NCBI RefSeq assembly: GCF_027941835.1
Contig: NZ_CP116005.1
Span: 2,061,501-2,125,500 of the forward strand
DNA: 64,000 bases
DNA from: Sphingosinicella microcystinivorans
Lineage (GTDB): Bacteria > Pseudomonadota > Alphaproteobacteria > Sphingomonadales > Sphingomonadaceae
Direction: 5' to 3'
In this document: one piece after another, positions 14,750 to 23,333 of the stretch
Layout of the letters: every line of letters begins with the position of its first letter
How positions within the stretch are numbered: the first letter of the stretch is position 1
Position numbers and translations under genes: made by a program
The notes under the pieces: generated by a model
The model's database searches: none
What the model was told of the DNA's origin: nothing
What the model saw: only the letters and a program-made list of their open reading frames with translations

Positions 14750-14836
14750 GCCCAGGTGGCGGAATTGGTAGACGCGCTAGCTTCAGGTGCTAGTGCCGGT
14801 AACGGCGTGAAGGTTCGAGTCCTTTCCTGGGCACCA
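14750..14836 (+). tRNA. tRNA-Leu, anticodon CAG
   Basis: This is an 87-base class II tRNA with CCA encoded. The acceptor stem is GCCCAGG (14750-14756) with CCTGGGC (14826-14832), followed by discriminator A and CCA. The D arm holds GGCGGAATTGGTAGACGC, and the anticodon stem-loop reads CTAGC-TTCAGGT-GCTAG with anticodon CAG. It has a variable arm (TGCCGGTAACGGCG) and a T loop TTCGAGT. All stems pair, so the gene remains functional although an element has integrated at its 3' end. Confidence 0.97.
14816..14836 (+). repeat. Left attachment site (attL) in the tRNA 3' end
   Basis: The T-loop-to-CCA segment of tRNA-Leu serves as the left crossover site. Its first 15 bases are repeated perfectly at 23314-23328; after that the right copy lacks one G before CACCA. 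Confidence 0.88.
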
Positions 14837-14948
14837 TTTGTTCTTCCCTGAACGTCTCCATTAGCTTTACAAAACGGCAGAAATCTGCGAAAAACCATCC
14901 CAGACGGTTCGCAGTTGTTCGTGTTTGCTTCTCTGCAATCCGTCTCAG

Positions 14949-14969
14949 TTGGGGGCCTTTTTGGGGGCC
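14949..14969 (+). repeat. Paired TTGGGGGCC repeats, probable integrase arm-binding sites (left)
   Basis: TTGGGGGCC occurs at 14949-14957 and again at 14961-14969, a 12-bp period, about 120 bp inside the left attachment site. The same pair, with the same spacing, is at 23237-23257. DUF4102 integrases bind arm sites with their N-terminal domain, so these are probably arm-type sites. Confidence 0.7.
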
Positions 14970-15000
14970 TCTAACCGAAAACTGGAACGAGAGGCCCCCA
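14962..15000 (+). promoter_or_regulatory. Inverted repeat over the integrase translation start
   Basis: TGGGGGCCTC (14962-14971) is the exact reverse complement of GAGGCCCCCA (14991-15000), whose end is 1 base before the integrase ATG. The right arm covers the only possible ribosome-binding region (AGAGG). It could fold in the mRNA to hide the start, or be an integrase operator, because the left arm includes one of the TTGGGGGC repeats. Confidence 0.6.
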
Positions 15001-15001
15001 A

Positions 15002-16237
15002 ATGTCGCTGAAAGACGCAGAAATCCGAGCCTTTCGGCCAAGGGATGCCTCCTACAAGAAGGCTGATGAAAAGGGCCTCTATCTCGAAATTAATCCAAAT
15101 GGATCAAAGTATTGGCGCCTAAAGTATCGCTTCAATGGTCGGGAGAAAAAGCTGGCGCTTGGGACCTATCCGGAAGTCGGTCTCGCTGCGGCACGGGCCA
15201 AAAGGGATGCGGCACGGGCGCAGCTCACCGGGGGGCAGGACCCGTCGTTTCAGCGGAAGCGTGAAAAGGTCATGGCGCAGATCAGCGCCGGGAACACCTT
15301 TGGCGGTGTTGCGGACGAGTTCATTGCCACAAAGTTGCAAGGCGAAGGCAAGTCTGACGCTACGCTGGTAAAAGCGCGCTGGTTTCTGGACCTGTTGCGC
15401 CCCGCGCTGGGTGAACGCCCCATTTCGGAAATCGAGCCGTCCGAAATTCTGGCCCCGCTCAAGACGCTGGAACGCAAGGGCCACCGCGAAACGGCGCGGC
15501 GCGTGCGTGCCTTTGCTAGTCGGGTATTTCGATACGGCGTTGCGACCGACCGTTGCAAGGCAGACCCCGCTGCACTGTTGCAGGGTGCGCTGATGGCGCC
15601 GAAGGTCACGCACCATGCGGCGATATTGGAACCCTTAAAGCTGGGCGAGTTGCTTCGCGCAGTGGACAGCTACACGGGAAGCCCGATTACCAAGTTCGCC
15701 ATGCAGCTCGCCCCGCATGTTTTCGTGCGACCGGGAGAGTTGCGCCACGCTGAATGGGGCGAATTTGACCGCAAGGGCGCGATCTGGCTCATCCCGGCGG
15801 GTAAAATGAAGCAGCGCCGGCCACACTCCGTGCCTCTCTCCCGGCAGGTGCTGGAGCTGCTTGATGAACTGGAGCCACTGACTGGAGCGGCACGCTACCT
15901 GTTCCCATCCATGCAAACCTTGCAGCGCCCCATGAGCGAGAACACCATGAACGCCGCGTTTCGGCGCATGGGCTTTACCAGAACCGAGCTGACTGCGCAT
16001 GGCCTGCGCGCAACGGCTTCCACGCTGCTGAACGAAAGCGGAAAATGGTCCCCTGATGCGATTGAGCGCGCTCTTGCCCACGGCGAAAGCGATGCCGTGC
16101 GCGGCGCGTATCATCGCGGCCAGCATTGGCAGGAACGGGTAAAAATGGCGCAGTGGTGGAGCGATCACCTGGATGCGCTGCGGTCAGGCGCCGAGATAAT
16201 AGAACTGCACGTGCCTGCAAGGGCGGGGAATGACTGA
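15002..16237 (+). CDS. int: Tyrosine recombinase/integrase, DUF4102 (P4-type)
   Basis: This 411-residue integrase catalyses site-specific integration and excision at tRNA-Leu. Residues 1-85 form the DUF4102 arm-binding domain (SLKDAEIRAFRPRD, then KGLYLEINPNGSKYW and KLALGTYPEVGLAAAR). A SAM-like core-binding domain follows (about 95-190), then the catalytic domain. Catalytic residues visible are Arg in VRPGELRHAEW, His and Arg in TAHGLRATAS, His in ALAHGES, and the Tyr nucleophile in AYHRGQHW. Full length and all catalytic residues suggest it is active. The ATG at 15002 is covered by an inverted repeat, which may regulate it. The next gene overlaps its end by 8 bases. Confidence 0.96.
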   Translation: MSLKDAEIRAFRPRDASYKKADEKGLYLEINPNGSKYWRLKYRFNGREKKLALGTYPEVGLAAARAKRDAARAQLTGGQDPSFQRKREKVMAQISAGNTFGGVADEFIATKLQGEGKSDATLVKARWFLDLLRPALGERPISEIEPSEILAPLKTLERKGHRETARRVRAFASRVFRYGVATDRCKADPAALLQGALMAPKVTHHAAILEPLKLGELLRAVDSYTGSPITKFAMQLAPHVFVRPGELRHAEWGEFDRKGAIWLIPAGKMKQRRPHSVPLSRQVLELLDELEPLTGAARYLFPSMQTLQRPMSENTMNAAFRRMGFTRTELTAHGLRATASTLLNESGKWSPDAIERALAHGESDAVRGAYHRGQHWQERVKMAQWWSDHLDALRSGAEIIELHVPARAGND

Positions 16238-16910
16238 ATCCACATGGCCAGACCCAACGGAGTGGATCAACGGCCTTACCCATGACCTGACGCATCGGAT
16301 TGCCGCCTATGAAAGCGAAACCGATGCCGATCTGAAACGCAACAAGGCGGCCGGTTATATCGGCTGCATCGCCGGTCATCTGGGCTTGCTCCCAGCTTTC
16401 AGGAACAATGACCTGCTGATGCCCATCAAGGACCTGTTGATTTTCGTGCATGCATTGGAGCACGGAGGCAGCGGGCATCCTTGGACAAAGCCGGTCAACT
16501 ACGGCGGCACCAATGCCGAAACCCTCGCTGAAACCGAGGTCCGTGTTTGGGTGGTGATGGGAGTATGGTCGCTGCTGGAAGGCGGCTACTCCAAGAACAA
16601 GGCTTACAAGTACCTCGCGCGTGCAATGACGGAATCGGGGCGTACCTCGAAGGGCCAGCCCTACTCCCACCGCAATGTCCAGCGCTGGTGGCTCGCCTAC
16701 GAGAACGGAACCGACCCGCGACTGGAGAAGGTGCAAGAGCATATCGAGAACTACTGGGCCAAGATGCCGTGCCCGCATGGCTCGCGCATGTATGAATGCG
16801 GAAGCCGCCCTGATTCTCGCCGCTGCGCCGCGTGGCGGGCCGTAGCGGAAGAATTTGCGGCGAATGCACTCAAGGTCGCCAACTTCAGAGACTGGTTCGT
16901 TTCGCGCTAG
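16230..16910 (+). CDS. Hypothetical protein with a possible helix-turn-helix segment
   Basis: This 226-residue protein of unknown function starts inside the end of the integrase gene (8-base overlap), so the two are translated together. Predicted mostly helical, it has a central segment (about 128-165: YSKNKAYKYLARAM ... PYSHRNVQRWWLAYENG). That segment resembles the replication/regulatory helix-turn-helix layout in which a helical pair is followed by a W-rich recognition helix. The C-terminus contains three Cys (MPCPHG, YECGS, RCAAW) that could bind a metal or pair. Its place between integrase and AlpA-like gene suggests a role in control of excision or replication; this is an inference only. 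Confidence 0.72.
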   Translation: MTESTWPDPTEWINGLTHDLTHRIAAYESETDADLKRNKAAGYIGCIAGHLGLLPAFRNNDLLMPIKDLLIFVHALEHGGSGHPWTKPVNYGGTNAETLAETEVRVWVVMGVWSLLEGGYSKNKAYKYLARAMTESGRTSKGQPYSHRNVQRWWLAYENGTDPRLEKVQEHIENYWAKMPCPHGSRMYECGSRPDSRRCAAWRAVAEEFAANALKVANFRDWFVSR

Positions 16911-16968
16911 AAAAATGAACCAGTGTCCGCGTGTATGAGGAAGCACCAACAACCTTACAGGTGCTTCT

Positions 16969-17139
16969 ATGGATCGACTTCTTACCATCAAGGACTTCAT
17001 GGATCGCTACGGCGTTGGCCGATCGACCGTGTACCGCGAAAATGCAGCGCAGCGCCTGCCGTTCCGAAAGGTCGGCCGTTCGACCCGGATTGCGCAGAGT
17101 GACGCGACCGCGTGGTTTGAGAAGCTGCCGCTGCGCTGA
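16969..17139 (+). CDS. Small AlpA/excisionase-like DNA-binding protein
   Basis: This 56-residue ORF starts at the ATG at 16969 (AGGTG 6 bases upstream). It reads MDRLLTIKDFMDRYGVGRST, then VYRE, a linker with LPFRKVGRSTRI, and DATAWFEKLPL at the end. This is the AlpA/helix-turn-helix_17 pattern: MerR-like winged helix, a turn at GVGRSTVYR, the wing at RKVGRSTRI and the final D.. .WF. .L helix. AlpA-type proteins in P4-like elements activate integrase expression or serve as excisionases. It is short and easily missed, but the pattern is complete. Confidence 0.87.
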   Translation: MDRLLTIKDFMDRYGVGRSTVYRENAAQRLPFRKVGRSTRIAQSDATAWFEKLPLR

Positions 17140-17163
17140 TTCATTTCATCCCCGGCCGTTCCT

Positions 17164-17919
17164 TTGAAACTTGCGCGGTTTTGTCCGGCGGCGTTCCCCG
17201 ACGATCCAGCCGAAATTGGAGAAAACGGCGAAAATCCGGGGCTTGGCGGCGAAGGCAATGCCTCCCCCCATATAGGAGGGATTTTCAAGGCGGCCGGGCA
17301 CTACGCAGGCGGGTTGCGGCGTGGCGGCGCGCGCAATAGGGCCGACCGGATCAGCCATACGCTCACCGAAGCCCAATGCTTCGCGCTGATCGATGCTGCG
17401 GAGAGGGCATTGGGCGTCGGCCGGCCATTCAACCGTTTCGTGACCATCCTTTGGGAGCGTGGCGGAATCGCAAACGGTGAGAACGCTGGAACGACCGGCC
17501 GATTTGTGAAGCTGGCAAGCGATTGGGCGCGGCGGCGCGGCTATCGCCTGCCGTGGGCCTGGGTACAGGAGCATGGGCCAGTGAACGGCGCGCATGTCCA
17601 CATGCTGCTGCACGTGCCGCCAGACCTCGACCCGCTCTTCCGACCGATGCCCCTGCGCTGGGTCAAGCATCTGCTTCCCGGCCGTTACGTGCCGAGCGTA
17701 CTGCAATGCCAGAAAATAGCCGGCGGGCGGTACTACTCGGCAGCGCCAGACCTCTACAGGGTGAATCTGGAGCGGAAGCTGGAGTATATGCTGAAAGCTT
17801 CGTCCGGAGAAATTGCCGCACGGTTTACGGGGCCTTGGCTGCCGCGTGCGTGTACCGTTCAGGGAAAGCGAGCGGGTGTTTGGCAGTGCGCCATGCCTGG
17901 CACCCATAACATGGCCTGA
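17164..17919 (+). CDS. HUH-type replication initiator-like protein
   Basis: This 251-residue protein has two core features of HUH endonucleases in the right order. The first is a metal-binding HVH motif within WVQEHGPVNGAHVHMLLHVP (about residues 132-151). The second is a YxxK motif (YMLK, about residues 208-211) in a helix with ERKLEYMLKASS. This layout resembles rolling-circle Rep proteins and inovirus/satellite Gp2-like families, which nick a double-strand origin by a Tyr-DNA bond. The only in-frame start is a TTG at 17164 right after a stop, without a clear ribosome-binding site. A GGAGG at about 17273-17279 precedes ATT in frame, so the start is uncertain. It suggests that the element can replicate as an excised circle. 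Confidence 0.75.
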   Translation: MKLARFCPAAFPDDPAEIGENGENPGLGGEGNASPHIGGIFKAAGHYAGGLRRGGARNRADRISHTLTEAQCFALIDAAERALGVGRPFNRFVTILWERGGIANGENAGTTGRFVKLASDWARRRGYRLPWAWVQEHGPVNGAHVHMLLHVPPDLDPLFRPMPLRWVKHLLPGRYVPSVLQCQKIAGGRYYSAAPDLYRVNLERKLEYMLKASSGEIAARFTGPWLPRACTVQGKRAGVWQCAMPGTHNMA

Positions 17920-18036
17920 AGGCGACCAAGTTTGCTTATGATTTAGGAAAATCTTGGCGGCGGGTGTCGGGGCGGCTAACCATGCCGAGCGCGAAAGGGG
18001 GCAACATGCGGACCATGGCTGTATCAGGGAACAAGG
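17920..18036 (+). promoter_or_regulatory. Leader region of the restriction-modification gene
   Basis: This 117-bp gap separates the HUH gene from the restriction-modification gene. TATGAT (17937-17942) is a good -10 candidate without an obvious -35. The region ends with a small leader ORF (18006-18044) that overlaps the downstream start. Confidence 0.4.
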
Positions 18037-18044
18037 ATGACTGA
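18006..18044 (+). CDS. 12-residue leader ORF overlapping the restriction gene start
   Basis: ATG at 18006 follows AAAGGGGG by 6 bases and encodes MRTMAVSGNKDD, then TGA. Its stop lies 8 bases beyond the ATG (18037) of the restriction-methyltransferase gene, in another frame. Its ribosome-binding site is stronger than that of the main gene. Terminating ribosomes could re-start on the overlapping ATG, which would make this a coupling or attenuating leader. It is short, so chance cannot be excluded. Confidence 0.45.
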   Translation: MRTMAVSGNKDD

Positions 18045-21000
18045 CCCCAGCCTGTTCGTATCCGGCACGCTATTCACGCATGACTATCTGGTCGCAGGTA
18101 TCACAGAGACATCCGAATTTGCGGCCGTCGATACGGGGGCCGTGCGTGCCACATTGTGCGAAATCCTTGTCGGGTTTCCACATGACAGCAAGCCTAACGA
18201 GGCGACCACCGAAAGCGATTTCATCTGGCCGGTTCTGCGCGCCCTTGGATGGGCGGATTATCTGACCCAGCAGAATTTGTCGGCGTCCGGGCGGGTTGAC
18301 GTGCCGGATGCCCTGCTGTTCATCAATGAGGCGGCGAAGCAGCGGGCGAACGGCCACGGCGAGGAGTGGAAGCGCTACCAGTTCGGTGCCGCGATCGTCG
18401 AAAGCAAACGCTGGGGCCGCGCGCTGGACCGGGCCGAGGGGCGCGGCGAACGGGATACGCCGTCCACCCAACTGCTGCGCTACCTGCGCCGCATCGACGA
18501 TCTGACCGCTGGCGAACTGCGCTGGGGCATCCTTACAAATGGGGCCAGGTGGCGTCTCTATTTCGCCGGGGCTCGCTCCACTATCGACGACTATCTGGAA
18601 CTGGACCTGACCCGCATCATGGAGCTGGGCGGCGACCTACTGGATACGGGCATAAGTGATGATGAACGCGATCACTGGCTGGCGGTTTTTGTTGCCATGT
18701 TCTCGCGCGCCGCGTTCGACAGGACGGGCGCAGACAAGCGTAGCTTTCATGACAGGGCGCGCAGCGACGCCGCCTTCTATGAGGAGCGTGTTGCCAAAAG
18801 CCTGTCCGACCTTGTGTTCGATCGGCTCTATCCAGCGCTGGGCCGCGCGATTGCCAATGCTGCCCCTGCCCACACGCCGCTGGGGGAGGTCCGGCAGGCG
18901 ACGCTGATTCTCCTCTACCGGTTGCTGTTCGTACTCTATGCCGAGGATCGGGGCCTGCTGCCGGTCAAGGACCAGCGCTATGACGACTATGCGCTGCGCG
19001 AACGGCGGATGGAAATCGGCCGGCGGAAGGATAGTGGCGACAGCTTCTCGACGGTCGCGAAAACCATCTGGCACAATTTCGGCGACCTTGCAGAAATGAT
19101 CGACAAGGGCGATCCGTCGGTCGGCCTGCCGCCCTACAATGGCGGGCTGTTCAGCAGCGAGCAGACGCCGCTTCTCAAAGCCATCGCGCTCGGTGATGAC
19201 GTAATGGCCGAGGCGATCGACATTCTCTCCTGGGAACGGCGCGACGGGCAGCGGCGCTATATCAACTATCGCGACCTTTCAGTGCAGCAATTGGGGTCCA
19301 TCTACGAACGGCTACTGGAGTTCGAGCTGACACGCGGCGACGCGGGCGACGTGGATATTCGCCCCAACATCTTCGCGCGCAAAAGCTCCGGCAGCTACTA
19401 TACGCCCGACGATCTGGTGCTTCTGATCCTCGACGAAACGCTGGAACCATTGATCGCGGACGCCCTGGCCGCTTTCACGGATGCGTTGGATAAGCTGCGG
19501 CGGCAGGACAGCGAGGATTTCCGCATAGCGCAATTGCAGAAGGTCGATCCCGCCAAGGCCATCACGCGGCTGCGCATCTGCGATCCGGCCATGGGATCGG
19601 GCCATTTCCTGGTCAGCCTTGTCGATCGGCTGACCAACCATGCCCTGAACGCAATGGCGGAGGCGGCGGCACTGGCGCGGGCGCCCGGCATCGATCTGGA
19701 TTATGAATCTCCGGTCGCCGAGGAAATTCGCAAAATCCGGGCGACCATCCGTCACAATGCCGAGGATGCCCGATGGGCGGTCAGCGAGGATCAGCTGGAC
19801 GATCCCCAACTGGTCAAGCGCATGGTGCTGAAGCGCTGCATCTACGGCGTGGACAAGAATCCGATGGCGGTGGAGCTGGCGAAGGTGTCGCTATGGCTCC
19901 ACACCTTCACGGTCGGCGCGCCGCTGTCCTTCATCGATCACCATCTGGCGGCCGGGGACAGCCTGTTCGGCCTGTGGGTGCGCGATGCGATCGACCGGGC
20001 GGCGAAGGGCGGCGAACTGTTTTACGCCGATGCGCTGCGCAACGCCCAGCGGCAGGCGGTCGCCATGCGCACGATCGAGGCGCTGACCGATGCGGAAATA
20101 GCCGAGGCGCACCGCTCAGCCGAAATGTGGACCGATGTTGAGGCGCAGACGGGGCCGCTCGACAGCTTCGTCAGCTTCATGCACGCGCTCGACTGGCTGA
20201 ACCTGCCAAGGACGGACAGGGCTTTGGTCAACCTCTGGCTGGACGGTCAGTTTGGTGACCCCGTGTCGCTGGCGCGCGGGCGCATCGCCCCCGAAGCCGG
20301 CAAGGCACGCCCGGACGAAGTGGAGCGTTTCACGCAAATATGGTGCGCCGCGCGCGACCTGATCAGCGAGGAGCGTTTCCTCAACTGGCAAATCACCTTC
20401 CCCGGCGTCTGGGAAAACTGGGCCAGCGCGGCTCGGGAGGGCGGCTTTGATGCCGTCGTCGGCAATCCGCCATGGGACCGGATCAAATTGCAACAGGTGG
20501 AATGGTTCGCCGCGCGCCGGCCGGAAATCGCGCGGGCGCAGCGCGCTTCCGATCGGTCAAGGATGATCAGGGCGCTGGAGGAGGCGGGCGACCCGCTCTA
20601 CGCTGATTATCAGAAGGCCGACCGGCGCGCGGGCGACGCCGCGCGGGTGGCGCGCGGGTCAGGCCATTACCCGCTGCTCAGCCGGGGCGACATCAACCTG
20701 TACAGCCTGTTCGTCGAGCGCGCCCATGCACTGGTGAGGCCCGGCGGCATGGTGGGCCTGCTGACCCCCAGCGGCATCGCATCGGACCTGTCGGCGAGCG
20801 CCTTTTTCCGGAAGGTCGCGACCGGCGGCCACCTGAAGACGCTTTATGATTTCGAAAACAAGAAGGTCTTTTTCCCGGACGTCCACGCCAGCTTCAAGTT
20901 TTGCATATTTGTCGCGAGTCCGGCACGCACGTTCAGCGCGGCAATATGCTCTTTCTATCTGCACTCGATTGAAGAACTGAAAAACCCCGATCAAGTGTTT

Positions 21001-22113
21001 CCGATCACAGCGACGGACTTCGCGCGCGTGAATCCAAACACCGGCACCGCGCCCATTTTCCGCACCCGGCGCGACATGGCGCTGACGACGGCCATTTATG
21101 AGCGGCTGCCGGTGCTGGTGGATCGGTCGGGCGACGAGCCTGTCGCGGCCTGGCCTGTCCGATATGTTCGCATGTTCGACATGACCAACGACAGCCATCT
21201 GTTCCGGACGCAGGCGGAGCTGGAGGAGAAGGAAGGCGCGTGGCCGGTCGGCGGCAACCGCTGGAAGTCCGAGGCGGGCGAGTGGGTGCCGCTTTATGTC
21301 GGCCGCATGCTCCACCTGTTCGACCACCGGGCGGCATCGGTGTCCGTTAACGAGGCAAACCTGCACAACCCGGCGCTGAGTGTTGAAGTGACGCCGGAAA
21401 TGAAAGCTGATCCAGCCTATTTCCCGACTCCACAGTATTGGGTTGCCAGCACGACTGACGCTCCGAGCAAGCCTGCAATAGCGTTCCGCGACATTGCAAG
21501 AGCAACAGACGTTCGGACGTTCATAGCGTCGTTCATACCCAGCGGAAGCGCGGGAAACACTGCGCCGCTGCTTGTGAGCGACCTGCCATTTGTCGATCAG
21601 GCTCTGATGTTAGGCAACATCAATTCAACCGTCCTCGACTATGTGGCGCGTCAGAAGGCGCAAAGCACGCATCTGAACTGGTATATTGTCGAGCAGCTGC
21701 CAATCATTCCACCTGCCGGCTATGGTCGCGCCTTCGGCGCCAAAACCGCTTCTGAAATCGTGCGGCAAACGGTGCTGGAGCTGACCTATACTGCGCACGA
21801 CATGGCACCGTTCGCGCGCGACATGGGCCATGTCGATGCAGCGGGCAACGTGCTGCCGCCCTTCGTCTGGGATGAGGAGCGCCGCCTGCATCTGCGGGCG
21901 AAGCTCGATGCGCTCTATTTCATTCTCTACGGCGTCTATGATCCCGCTGATCCGGCGGCGAGCCGCGATGATATCCGCTACATCTATTCAACTTTCCCGA
22001 TCGTCGAGCGGCAGGAAATCGCCGCCTGGGGCTGCTATCGCAGCCGCGATCTCTGCCTTGCCTATCTCAACGCCCTGATTGCGGGCCAGCCGGATGCCGA
22101 GGTGACGGGATAG
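18037..22113 (+). CDS. Type IIG-like restriction-modification enzyme (nuclease-N6-adenine methyltransferase fusion)
   Basis: This 1358-residue protein combines three parts. The N-terminus (to about residue 180) holds a nuclease-type PD-(D/E)xK signature: VDVPDALLF near residues 87-95, then AAIVESKRW near 118-126. A helical connector contains YTPDDLVLLILDETL. The Eco57I/gamma-class N6-adenine methyltransferase has motif I DPAMGSGHFLVSL (about 514-526) and motif IV VVGNPPWD (about 806-813). A long C-terminal part should recognise the DNA target. The architecture is that of single-polypeptide Type IIG/IIL systems that cleave and methylate. BREX PglX is also of this size, but none of its partner genes is here. 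The ATG at 18037 has AAGG directly before it and overlaps a leader ORF. Target sequence unknown. Confidence 0.88.
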   Translation: MTDPSLFVSGTLFTHDYLVAGITETSEFAAVDTGAVRATLCEILVGFPHDSKPNEATTESDFIWPVLRALGWADYLTQQNLSASGRVDVPDALLFINEAAKQRANGHGEEWKRYQFGAAIVESKRWGRALDRAEGRGERDTPSTQLLRYLRRIDDLTAGELRWGILTNGARWRLYFAGARSTIDDYLELDLTRIMELGGDLLDTGISDDERDHWLAVFVAMFSRAAFDRTGADKRSFHDRARSDAAFYEERVAKSLSDLVFDRLYPALGRAIANAAPAHTPLGEVRQATLILLYRLLFVLYAEDRGLLPVKDQRYDDYALRERRMEIGRRKDSGDSFSTVAKTIWHNFGDLAEMIDKGDPSVGLPPYNGGLFSSEQTPLLKAIALGDDVMAEAIDILSWERRDGQRRYINYRDLSVQQLGSIYERLLEFELTRGDAGDVDIRPNIFARKSSGSYYTPDDLVLLILDETLEPLIADALAAFTDALDKLRRQDSEDFRIAQLQKVDPAKAITRLRICDPAMGSGHFLVSLVDRLTNHALNAMAEAAALARAPGIDLDYESPVAEEIRKIRATIRHNAEDARWAVSEDQLDDPQLVKRMVLKRCIYGVDKNPMAVELAKVSLWLHTFTVGAPLSFIDHHLAAGDSLFGLWVRDAIDRAAKGGELFYADALRNAQRQAVAMRTIEALTDAEIAEAHRSAEMWTDVEAQTGPLDSFVSFMHALDWLNLPRTDRALVNLWLDGQFGDPVSLARGRIAPEAGKARPDEVERFTQIWCAARDLISEERFLNWQITFPGVWENWASAAREGGFDAVVGNPPWDRIKLQQVEWFAARRPEIARAQRASDRSRMIRALEEAGDPLYADYQKADRRAGDAARVARGSGHYPLLSRGDINLYSLFVERAHALVRPGGMVGLLTPSGIASDLSASAFFRKVATGGHLKTLYDFENKKVFFPDVHASFKFCIFVASPARTFSAAICSFYLHSIEELKNPDQVFPITATDFARVNPNTGTAPIFRTRRDMALTTAIYERLPVLVDRSGDEPVAAWPVRYVRMFDMTNDSHLFRTQAELEEKEGAWPVGGNRWKSEAGEWVPLYVGRMLHLFDHRAASVSVNEANLHNPALSVEVTPEMKADPAYFPTPQYWVASTTDAPSKPAIAFRDIARATDVRTFIASFIPSGSAGNTAPLLVSDLPFVDQALMLGNINSTVLDYVARQKAQSTHLNWYIVEQLPIIPPAGYGRAFGAKTASEIVRQTVLELTYTAHDMAPFARDMGHVDAAGNVLPPFVWDEERRLHLRAKLDALYFILYGVYDPADPAASRDDIRYIYSTFPIVERQEIAAWGCYRSRDLCLAYLNALIAGQPDAEVTG

Positions 22114-22123
22114 GGAGCATTGC

Positions 22124-22504
22124 ATGGCAAAGAAGCCCCCAAGTGTGAAGTTCGACGGGACCGCGCATTGGTTCAGACTGCCCTATGCGGCCTCGCTCAC
22201 GGGTATCACCAAGCCACAACTCTCCCGAATGGCGTTGGCGGGTGAATTGGCGTTCGAAGCCGATCGGTATGGACGACCGCTTTGGTTTGTCGCGTCAGAA
22301 ATCCAGACGCTGCAAAAGACGTTCACGAAGGCAGGGGCTGCAAAGACGGTCGCAAAGACGAAGCCGAAAACCCCAAGGCAACTGGAAGCGGAATGGGCCA
22401 GAATGTCCGCAAAGCGGGATGCGGGACGGCGCGACGGGCCGTTCCTCAATATGCACCTGCGTCTCACCCTTCCCCGCGACAAACCCGGAAAGAAGGATGA
22501 GTGA
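22124..22504 (+). CDS. Small MerR/excisionase-like helix-turn-helix protein beside the restriction gene
   Basis: This 126-residue protein begins 10 bp after the restriction gene (AGGGA site before the ATG). Residues 15-60 (FRLPYAASLTGITKPQLSRM, then ALAGELAFEADRYGRPLWF) look like a winged helix-turn-helix that reads DNA. They are followed by a Lys/Thr/Ala-rich linker and a basic tail (ARMSAKRDAGRRDGPF). It may regulate the restriction gene or act on excision. No named family is certain. Confidence 0.7.
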   Translation: MAKKPPSVKFDGTAHWFRLPYAASLTGITKPQLSRMALAGELAFEADRYGRPLWFVASEIQTLQKTFTKAGAAKTVAKTKPKTPRQLEAEWARMSAKRDAGRRDGPFLNMHLRLTLPRDKPGKKDE

Positions 22505-22560
22505 AGCGCGCACCAGTCTCTGCTATTCTGCCAATATTGTTTTGGGAGGCGAACGCTTAA

Positions 22561-23169
22561 ATGGGCGGCTGGGGATCAGGACAACAGGGCGGCCGACCGC
22601 TGGCGGAGACAAGTCTGCGTATCGACATTGCATGGATGATACGCACCGGACATGCGGTGCCCGGTTCGATCCTGAAAAGCTCGCTTCATTGGAGCGCCAA
22701 CGGGGAGCCGACAGCTTCGATCGGCTATACGGCCAACATGGTGGACCCGGAAAACGCGTGGCTCGAACTACGCTACAGCCGAGGTAGTGGCGGCGCACGG
22801 GAAACCGTGGCGCAGAATGTGCGGCTTGTCAGCACGATTCCCAATTATGGCGGCAAGCGTTGGTGGATGATCTGCCCCTATCGCCACGGCCGCGCCGGCA
22901 AGCTCTATTTGCCCGCCGGCGGGGACCGCTTCGCATCGCGGGCAGCGTGGCGAATTGGCTATCGCTCACAACGGCAAGCCTCTCGCGACCGGCCGTTTGA
23001 AGCGCTGTTCCGACTCCAACGCAAACTTGGGTGCGAGCCAGGCTGGGAGCAGCCTATCTATCGCCCCAAAGGCATGTGGCGCCGAACCTTCGAACGCCAC
23101 GAAACTCGTTACTATGACCTCGACGACAGGTGCGCGCTGGAAGCCCTGCGATTGATGGCACGGCTCTAG
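22561..23169 (+). CDS. Uncharacterised GGWGSG-type protein of mobile elements
   Basis: This 202-residue protein has the N-terminal signature MGGWGSGQQGGRP. Then come an SIGYTANM segment (about 58-65), a beta-rich section with KRWWMICPY (about 98-106), GKLYLPAGGDRFASR and a basic helix AAWRIGYRSQRQ. Proteins with this pattern occur widely in proteobacterial islands and prophages, but I know of no established function. Homologues usually carry a CxxC-like pair at the WWxxCP region; here only one Cys is visible. GGGAGGCGAAC precedes the ATG. As the last gene before the right attachment site it is a typical cargo position. Confidence 0.75.
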   Translation: MGGWGSGQQGGRPLAETSLRIDIAWMIRTGHAVPGSILKSSLHWSANGEPTASIGYTANMVDPENAWLELRYSRGSGGARETVAQNVRLVSTIPNYGGKRWWMICPYRHGRAGKLYLPAGGDRFASRAAWRIGYRSQRQASRDRPFEALFRLQRKLGCEPGWEQPIYRPKGMWRRTFERHETRYYDLDDRCALEALRLMARL

Positions 23170-23236
23170 CCGGCCGGGTCATCAAAGCGATCGATCGCGT
23201 ACAGGCGAACGATTTCCGTGGATGCATTTCGATGCG

Positions 23237-23257
23237 TTGGGGGCATATTTGGGGGCA
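23237..23257 (+). repeat. Paired TTGGGGGCA repeats, probable integrase arm-binding sites (right)
   Basis: TTGGGGGCA at 23237-23245 and 23249-23257 has the same 12-bp period as the pair at the left end, and lies about 57 bp before the right attachment core. Matching repeats inside both ends of the element suggest arm-type sites for its integrase. Confidence 0.7.
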
Positions 23258-23313
23258 TATTTCAAAGACGAACGAATAATATCGATATATTACAATAGCA
23301 TATTTGACAGATG

Positions 23314-23333
23314 CGAGTCCTTTCCTGGCACCA
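23314..23333 (+). repeat. Right attachment site (attR)
   Basis: CGAGTCCTTTCCTGG (23314-23328) is identical to the T-loop/acceptor part of tRNA-Leu at 14816-14830 and is followed by CACCA. It marks the right end of the element. Confidence 0.88.

Follow-up and report, generated by a model that had tools for sequence, protein, structure and literature searches.

The PICMI islands of Vibrionaceae are small, lack capsid genes and have been reported with restriction-modification (R-M) cargo, and their order, in the available part of the source, is integrase gene (int), int-overlapping gene, alpA, replication gene, variable defense slot and attachment (att) site (PMC10803314). For PICMI115 from Vibrio, the same part of the source gives int, an int-overlapping gene, alpA, a primase gene and a defense slot, states that excision requires alpA, int and the overlapping gene, and describes rolling-circle copying and the packaging of concatemers by a virulent phage (PMC10803314). 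Here, we analyzed an island at a tRNA-Leu gene of Sphingosinicella microcystinivorans. It lies in a stretch of 64,000 nucleotides (contig NZ_CP116005.1, positions 2,061,501 to 2,125,500, forward strand), which is called the window below and to which all coordinates refer. We consider it fairly probable that this is a satellite-like mobile island that depends on a helper and has a PICMI-type architecture, with an HUH rolling-circle initiator as its replication gene. The PICMI-like plan, known from Vibrio, is thereby extended to another bacterial class.

The island has the gene order, the small size, the lack of capsid genes and the R-M cargo in common with PICMI, and two sister islands (L125 and L131; loci and genomes carry our own numbers) encode a DUF3987 protein. 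It differs in its Sphingomonadales host, in its distal gene, here called orf202, in its place at tRNA-Leu and not at fis, and in its HUH Rep protein, which stands where a primase would be expected in this and 22 other islands. Of the features in the published definition, the integrase is present, and so is AlpA through PF12728 (the published model accepts PF05930 or PF12728). An HUH protein replaces the primase (DUF3987 with DUF5906), and tRNA-Leu replaces fis; DUF3987 was found only in L125 and L131, where DUF5906 was not listed. Without the primase and the fis site, the island is not a PICMI by the published definition.

Similar genes have been described elsewhere. The I23, I44 and I55 islands of Pseudomonas resemble this one in having a tyrosine integrase, AlpA, an inovirus Gp2-like protein, a type II R-M system and direct repeats at an RNA gene, and differ in their insertion at tmRNA, a shared region of about 18 kb, an alpA gene at the 3' end and the common presence of YqaJ; the available parts of the source do not mention a gene like orf202 (PMC12595487). 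I55, an AlpA-bearing satellite, is described there as transduced by a jumbo phage and as protecting its host through type II R-M (PMC12595487). Islands of Idiomarina pair an inovirus Gp2 protein with AlpA, or with an integrase and type I R-M, in the part of the report available (PMC12016528). Among P4-like satellites, AH14b likewise has an integrase, AlpA and a replication gene, but its replication gene encodes a Toprim primase and it measures 16.8 kb, again from a partial source (PMC4936722). The original prediction, made from the sequence alone, had not recognized the gene combination as a described group. For sphingomonads, we found no description of such islands among the open-license papers listed; parallels are described for Vibrio, Pseudomonas and Idiomarina in the available parts of those reports (PMC10803314, PMC12595487, PMC12016528).

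A precise insertion at tRNA-Leu(CAG)

The island and its features are as follows.

14837..23333, + strand, inserted island, defined by 15-bp att repeats and by the empty site in two congeners, G201 and G242
14750..14836, + strand, tRNA-Leu(CAG), the target gene, left intact (ARAGORN)
14816..14830, + strand, attL core, inside the tRNA gene (15-bp repeat)
14949..14970, + strand, left putative integrase arm-type sites, two TTGGGGGCCT 12 nt apart, with an inverted copy at 14990-15002
15002..16237, + strand, tyrosine integrase (Pfam families Arm-DNA-bind_3, Phage_int_M and Phage_integrase)
16230..16910, + strand, open reading frame 2 (ORF2), 226 amino acids (aa), with an 8-nt overlap with int, in the place of the PICMI iolg gene
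16969..17139, + strand, AlpA-like HTH_17 protein of 56 aa, probable excisionase or switch (PF12728)
17162..17175, + strand, CTTTGAAACTTGCG, conserved motif in the alpA-HUH interval, candidate Rep-binding or nick site (origin)
17164..17919, + strand, HUH Rep protein with residues E136, H144, H146, H150, Y208 and K211 (Pfam, alignment and fold model)
18037..22113, + strand, type IIG-like restriction-methylation enzyme of 1358 aa, Eco57I/DrmMI-like (Pfam and PADLOC)
22124..22504, + strand, small helix-turn-helix (HTH)-like protein beside the R-M gene (weak HTH_17 match, below the cut-off)
22561..23169, + strand, orf202, encoding 202 aa, conserved distal gene (family comparison)
23237..23260, + strand, right putative arm-type sites, two TTGGGGGCATAT 12 nt apart
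23314..23333, + strand, attR, a core copy at 23314-23328 followed by CACCA (15-bp repeat)

The island measures 8498 bp (8.5 kb) from core to core, and its seven genes (int, ORF2, the AlpA-like gene, the HUH gene, the IIG-like gene, the small HTH-like gene and orf202) all lie on the + strand. An exact 15-bp repeat of the 3' part of the tRNA gene, CGAGTCCTTTCCTGG, occurs at 14816-14830 and again at 23314-23328. None of 300 dinucleotide-model resamples reached a match of 15 bp, the longest chance match in the downstream 10 kb being 13 bp. The tRNA-Leu(CAG) gene is the single tRNA gene of the whole window. Among the five other genomes of the genus that were compared, two (G201 and G242) have an empty site, in which the tRNA gene directly abuts DNA matching the window from 23314 onward. 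A third, G150, carries different island-like DNA with an integrase-like start at the same tRNA site; the contig of G085 ends at the tRNA gene, and the gene flank had no match in G277, a genome that is 78% complete. Two islands from other genera, L051 and L053, occupy the same tRNA-Leu with related integrases (73% and 63% identity, respectively), and their att copy begins two bases earlier than that of the window and ends at the same point (tRNA positions -22 to -6). GC content is no clear marker of the island, being mostly 58-66% inside with one value of 69% (500-bp windows), 61-75% in the left flank and 53-63% in the right flank adjoining the island end. The island is a clean, precise insertion at tRNA-Leu.

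The repeats and the two empty sites bear out the original prediction that this is one discrete element. Its satellite- or plasmid-like plan is also supported, and the predicted lack of capsid, conjugation and partition genes agrees with a scan of six island proteins, none of which matched these families. The analysis adds the arm-site-like repeats at both ends, the motif upstream of the HUH gene and orf202 as a conserved distal gene.

A family of islands defined by orf202

A search with orf202 gave 79 loci in named genomes, the closest nearly all from Sphingomonadales by title. We examined 43 loci, comprising 39 from that scan plus the window, L051, L057 and L060; the more distant homologs L143-L182 were covered by profile scan only. 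A co-oriented integrase gene lies upstream of orf202 in 34 of the 43 loci, and among these 34, an AlpA-like gene is present in 29 and an HUH gene in 23. Relatives with the gene set therefore exist, and their absence, which the original prediction had named as a sign of a fixed remnant, was not found. In nine loci no integrase was found upstream. Among these, the contig of L109 breaks off, the integrase of L112, L137 and L139 lies on the downstream side of orf202 instead, and L118 has an unmatched 439-aa gene in the upstream place, as in L052. The order of the family is tRNA, int, often an int-overlapping gene, alpA, rep, cargo, orf202 and attR.

Members of the family are mosaic and sit at several tRNAs. 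The enzyme of the window is 70% identical to that of L054, but the integrases are only 28% identical; conversely, L051 shares the site and a close integrase with the window but has a different R-M type. A fixed defense island that is no longer mobile is a reading that we regard as quite unlikely. ORF2, with one relative besides itself in 397 genomes, and a broken integrase in one relative, L057, would be in keeping with it, but the open reading frames and att sites of the island are intact, two congeners have empty sites, and the relatives are spread in mosaic form over several tRNAs.

The orf202 product has a structural model with a predicted local distance difference test (pLDDT) score of 83.9, which found no PDB match at an E value of ≤0.001 (best E value, 0.11). 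Relatives of orf202 also occur on small plasmids (4.6-10 kb) of Phaeobacter, Leisingera and Psychrobacter (H7, H8 and H19-H21); the orf202 family is thus not tied to integration.

The replication slot is exchanged

The HUH gene is missing in 11 of the 34 islands, and proteins from nine of these were tested for families. Four of the 11 have a primase-type protein in the rep slot: Prim-Pol in L114 and L133 and DUF3987 in L125 and L131, the last of which also has a Toprim protein. Three islands without the HUH gene (L124, L130 and L131) have integrases 55-64% identical to that of the window, so that similar integration modules are paired with different replication modules. The island family thus shows a replication module being exchanged. 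Mainly because it alternates with primase-type genes, we call the HUH gene the replication gene, and the comparison suggests that this is its role in the island family.

The HUH protein has Rep-type residues

The protein has an HUH motif followed by the catalytic YxxK (H144, H146, Y208 and K211). Among 40 sequences, E136, Y208 and K211 are conserved in all, H146 in 39, H144 in 38 and H150 in 36. The family REP_ORF2-G2P was matched by 24 of 28 aligned members at an E value of ≤0.01. These residues and family matches uphold the predicted Rep-like HUH protein. The AlphaFold2 model of the protein (pLDDT, 81; predicted template modeling score, 0.77) gave, as the best of the 50 Foldseek matches listed, mostly nickase domains of parvovirus NS1 and adeno-associated virus Rep, with probabilities of up to 0.95; these matches were weak by E value (0.013 or worse) and by TM-score (0.3-0.4), and unrelated folds were among the 50. 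Searching PDB sequences with the HUH profile gave only weak matches, to parvovirus NS1 (E values, 0.18 and 0.2) and SIRV1 ORF119 (E value, 0.89).

The first start codon of the HUH frame, at 17164, overlaps the conserved motif at 17162-17175. The true start is probably the TTG at about 17314, because residues 1-37 were modeled at a pLDDT of <50 and the open frames of relatives begin later. In L003 and L007, which are the L052 and L056 islands, the HUH match contains stops and the open frame starts 90-120 nt into it.

HUH relatives were found in 36 of the 298 host-family genomes and in 6 of 299 genomes of a phylum-wide sample, the own genome being in both. A pattern scan of genome contigs gave no HUH match, probably because of divergence, given the 36 family genomes found by genome search. 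HUH relatives were also seen in other settings. A distant one lies on L048, a 5.8-kb contig with a 77-bp terminal overlap. The HUH-bearing loci L034 (11547-13461) and L031 (6698-7942) have a gene resembling that of DNA polymerase IV, with a family test for L031 alone, and near it in L034 is a gene whose start is like that of an SRAP protein.

A conserved motif marks a candidate origin

The sequence TTTGAAACTTGCG has a single occurrence in the 4.5-Mb own genome. The motif core, TTGAAACT(T/G), was found on the same strand no more than 300 nt upstream of where the HUH profile begins in 36 of 52 HUH genes, compared with 18 of 9523 random same-strand windows from the same loci. The 52 genes include the ten islands that first revealed the motif, nine of them motif-bearing, and relatedness among the genes is uncorrected; without those ten islands, the core was present in 27 of 42. 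In the stretches searched from the 11 non-HUH islands, there was one same-strand match (L125), one opposite-strand match (L133) and none in the other nine. In seven relatives, six of them by pattern, the core forms an arm of an inverted repeat that reads TTGAAACTTCACCG...CGGTGAAGTTTCAA or a close variant of it, and one representative folds with a z score of -7.6. In the group resembling the window, the core is flanked by repeats of the TGTnCC type (consensus, by eye).

The motif is a candidate rolling-circle origin, which would be expected to show binding-site repeats with a nick site, or a hairpin. An operator of the rep gene is an alternative. Two other candidates were set aside. TTGAAA resembles a -35 box, but reading the sequences by eye showed no -10 box at the usual spacing of a sigma-70 promoter, and a hairpin in the gap between the HUH and IIG genes was not significant (z = -0.94).

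Proposed mechanism and alternatives

From the insertion, the shared gene order, the exchanged modules, the Rep-type motifs and the conserved motif, all read in the sequence, we infer a probable course of excision, nicking, replication, helper use and defense. Int and the AlpA-like protein as the likely excision factor, perhaps with ORF2, would release the island as a circle at the tRNA core. Nicking by the HUH protein within the alpA-rep interval, near TTTGAAACTT, would drive rolling-circle copying into circles or concatemers; standing in the position of the PICMI primase, this protein would be a direct source of rolling-circle concatemers. A helper, most likely a phage, would provide the particles or pores needed for transfer, and the replaceable restriction enzyme in the cargo slot would protect the host, and hence the island, from other phages. 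We consider a more specific version somewhat less likely than not, in which these islands would be minimal phage satellites of Sphingomonadales: their engine would be swapped between primase and HUH at the TTTGAAACTT origin, HUH concatemers would fill a full-size helper capsid, and an exchangeable restriction enzyme would remove rival phages and spare the helper. With a single protein as the rolling-circle initiator and a candidate origin named, the island would lend itself to a simple test of how such tiny satellites produce concatemers fit for packaging.

Several observations weigh against a helper-dependent satellite with an HUH initiator. The motif core is missing in 16 of the 52 HUH genes, and the alpA-HUH DNA of the window folds no better than shuffles (z = 0.70), so that a hairpin at its candidate origin was rejected. 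Seven of the 11 non-HUH islands yielded no primase family: L105 and L111 have HTH_36, L113, L124 and L130 gave no family, and L123 and L126 were outside the tested set. The HUH copy of the window scores 23.5 bits with REP_ORF2-G2P, its best Pfam match, below the gathering score of 27.8. No HUH relative was found in 50,697 phage records or in a pattern scan of IMG/VR. The own genome had no match to Terminase_6N or Zot, other terminase families not having been searched, and no helper is therefore seen there. That genome does hold conjugation ATPase genes, with seven CagE_TrbE_VirB (type IV secretion system) matches at six places, and a distant HUH relative lies on a 4.3-kb plasmid of Sphingopyxis terrae (L045, NZ_CP013343.1, 2097-2888) beside a separately annotated RepA.

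The last two observations would suit an integrative mobilizable element, in which the HUH protein is mainly a relaxase, the motif is the origin of transfer (oriT) and the island is moved by a conjugative system resident in the host. An HUH motif before the tyrosine is the order of Rep proteins and not of relaxases, and the protein of the window has the Rep-type order. Furthermore, the 50 fold matches listed include no relaxase, with viral Reps and unrelated folds instead, and primase-type proteins stand in the same place in four sister islands, which argues for a replication role. We judge such an element unlikely, even though Rep proteins can act as relaxases for rolling-circle replication plasmids, as the available part of one source describes (PMC5714925). 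An HUH protein as the sole Rep of the Sphingopyxis plasmid was rejected, as the annotated RepA is also present.

The best Pfam match also brings to mind a satellite that uses a single-stranded DNA phage, filamentous or otherwise, with an HUH protein of the inovirus gene II type. An inovirus satellite plasmid, pDolos, is known from the available part of a review of hitchers (PMC11389934). The own genome has no Zot match and the phage records hold no HUH relative, both of which speak against this explanation, and we regard it as very improbable.

The cargo slot holds different restriction systems

The predicted type IIG-like enzyme is supported by nuclease and N6-methylase motif letters in one chain and by an Eco57I score of 81.9 bits. 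It resembles type IIG and DrmMI-like (Eco57I) enzymes in its N-terminal VPD and ExK and its methylase motifs DPAMGSG and NPPW, all of which are intact in the five homologs aligned. Unlike in DISARM, the enzyme stands alone, PADLOC giving no match for the other five island proteins scanned.

Types I, IIG, ISP and III occur in the cargo slot across the relatives. Type ISP is found in L052 and L055 (by Pfam) and in L117, L119, L127 and L135 (66-75% identity to L052), the IIG family of the window in L054, L057, L132 and L136, another IIG on the opposite strand in L121, a type III pair in L051 and a type I set in L129. In L069 and L131, an ISP gene sits between int and alpA. One DNA slot, from rep to orf202, thus holds four types of restriction systems in Sphingomonadales. 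R-M genes were detected in 17 of 34 islands (229 kb searched) and in 2 of 34 downstream flanks (290 kb), with nine reference proteins taken from these islands, six of which match themselves (window, L051, L121, L124, L129 and L130). Both flank matches, in L105 (25%) and L111, start 30-40 nt past orf202 and may be inside the islands. A PADLOC comparison covered proteins of 300 aa or more, drawn from 30 islands (those other than the window, L051, L057 and L060) and from flanks that were length-matched where the contig allowed. Of the 29 island proteins, 8 matched the IIG profile PDLC03610, which the ISP enzymes fit, and 5 matched a DrmMI profile; no profile matched more than 1 of 39 flank proteins. 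Relatives of the small HTH-like protein adjoin R-M genes in L117, L135 and L136, with a weak match in L033.

Non-restriction cargo includes polysaccharide genes in L058 and a PIN protein in L039, and in several islands the interval from rep to orf202 contains little. Unmatched genes in this slot are candidate defense genes. Long cargo-slot proteins without a PADLOC match are encoded in L060 (10678-12663, also without a Pfam match) and L126 (8166-9536); both are candidates for defense genes or other cargo. A cargo gene of L051 (8035-9516, opposite strand) encodes a fusion of a DSP-type phosphatase domain and an ADP-ribosylglycohydrolase. A relative of the IIG enzyme (59%) is encoded on a 15.4-kb IMG/VR contig (L192), which had no match for the int, alpA, HUH or orf202 profiles.

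The integration module

The integrase matches PF00589 with 61.3 bits. Close to each end of the island are tandem TTGGGGGC repeats spaced by 12 nt, and TTGGGGGC pairs are found at both ends of L053 too; these repeats are probably integrase arm sites.

ORF2 has one relative (64% identity), in G389, beside a related integrase and a tRNA. With a presence in 2 of 397 genomes, own included, it was rejected as part of a conserved backbone. Of the 49 integrase genes tested, 16 have a gene of 120 aa or more that overlaps or abuts them, a count made without a shuffle control, and in 10 of these 16 the overlap is 4 nt.

The AlpA-like protein scores 34.1 bits with PF12728, above the cut-off of 27, as expected from the original prediction. 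Its gene is not among the PF05930 (Phage_AlpA) matches of the own genome. Besides this HTH_17-type gene, the own genome (G000) has eight Phage_AlpA matches, which makes further islands in it likely.

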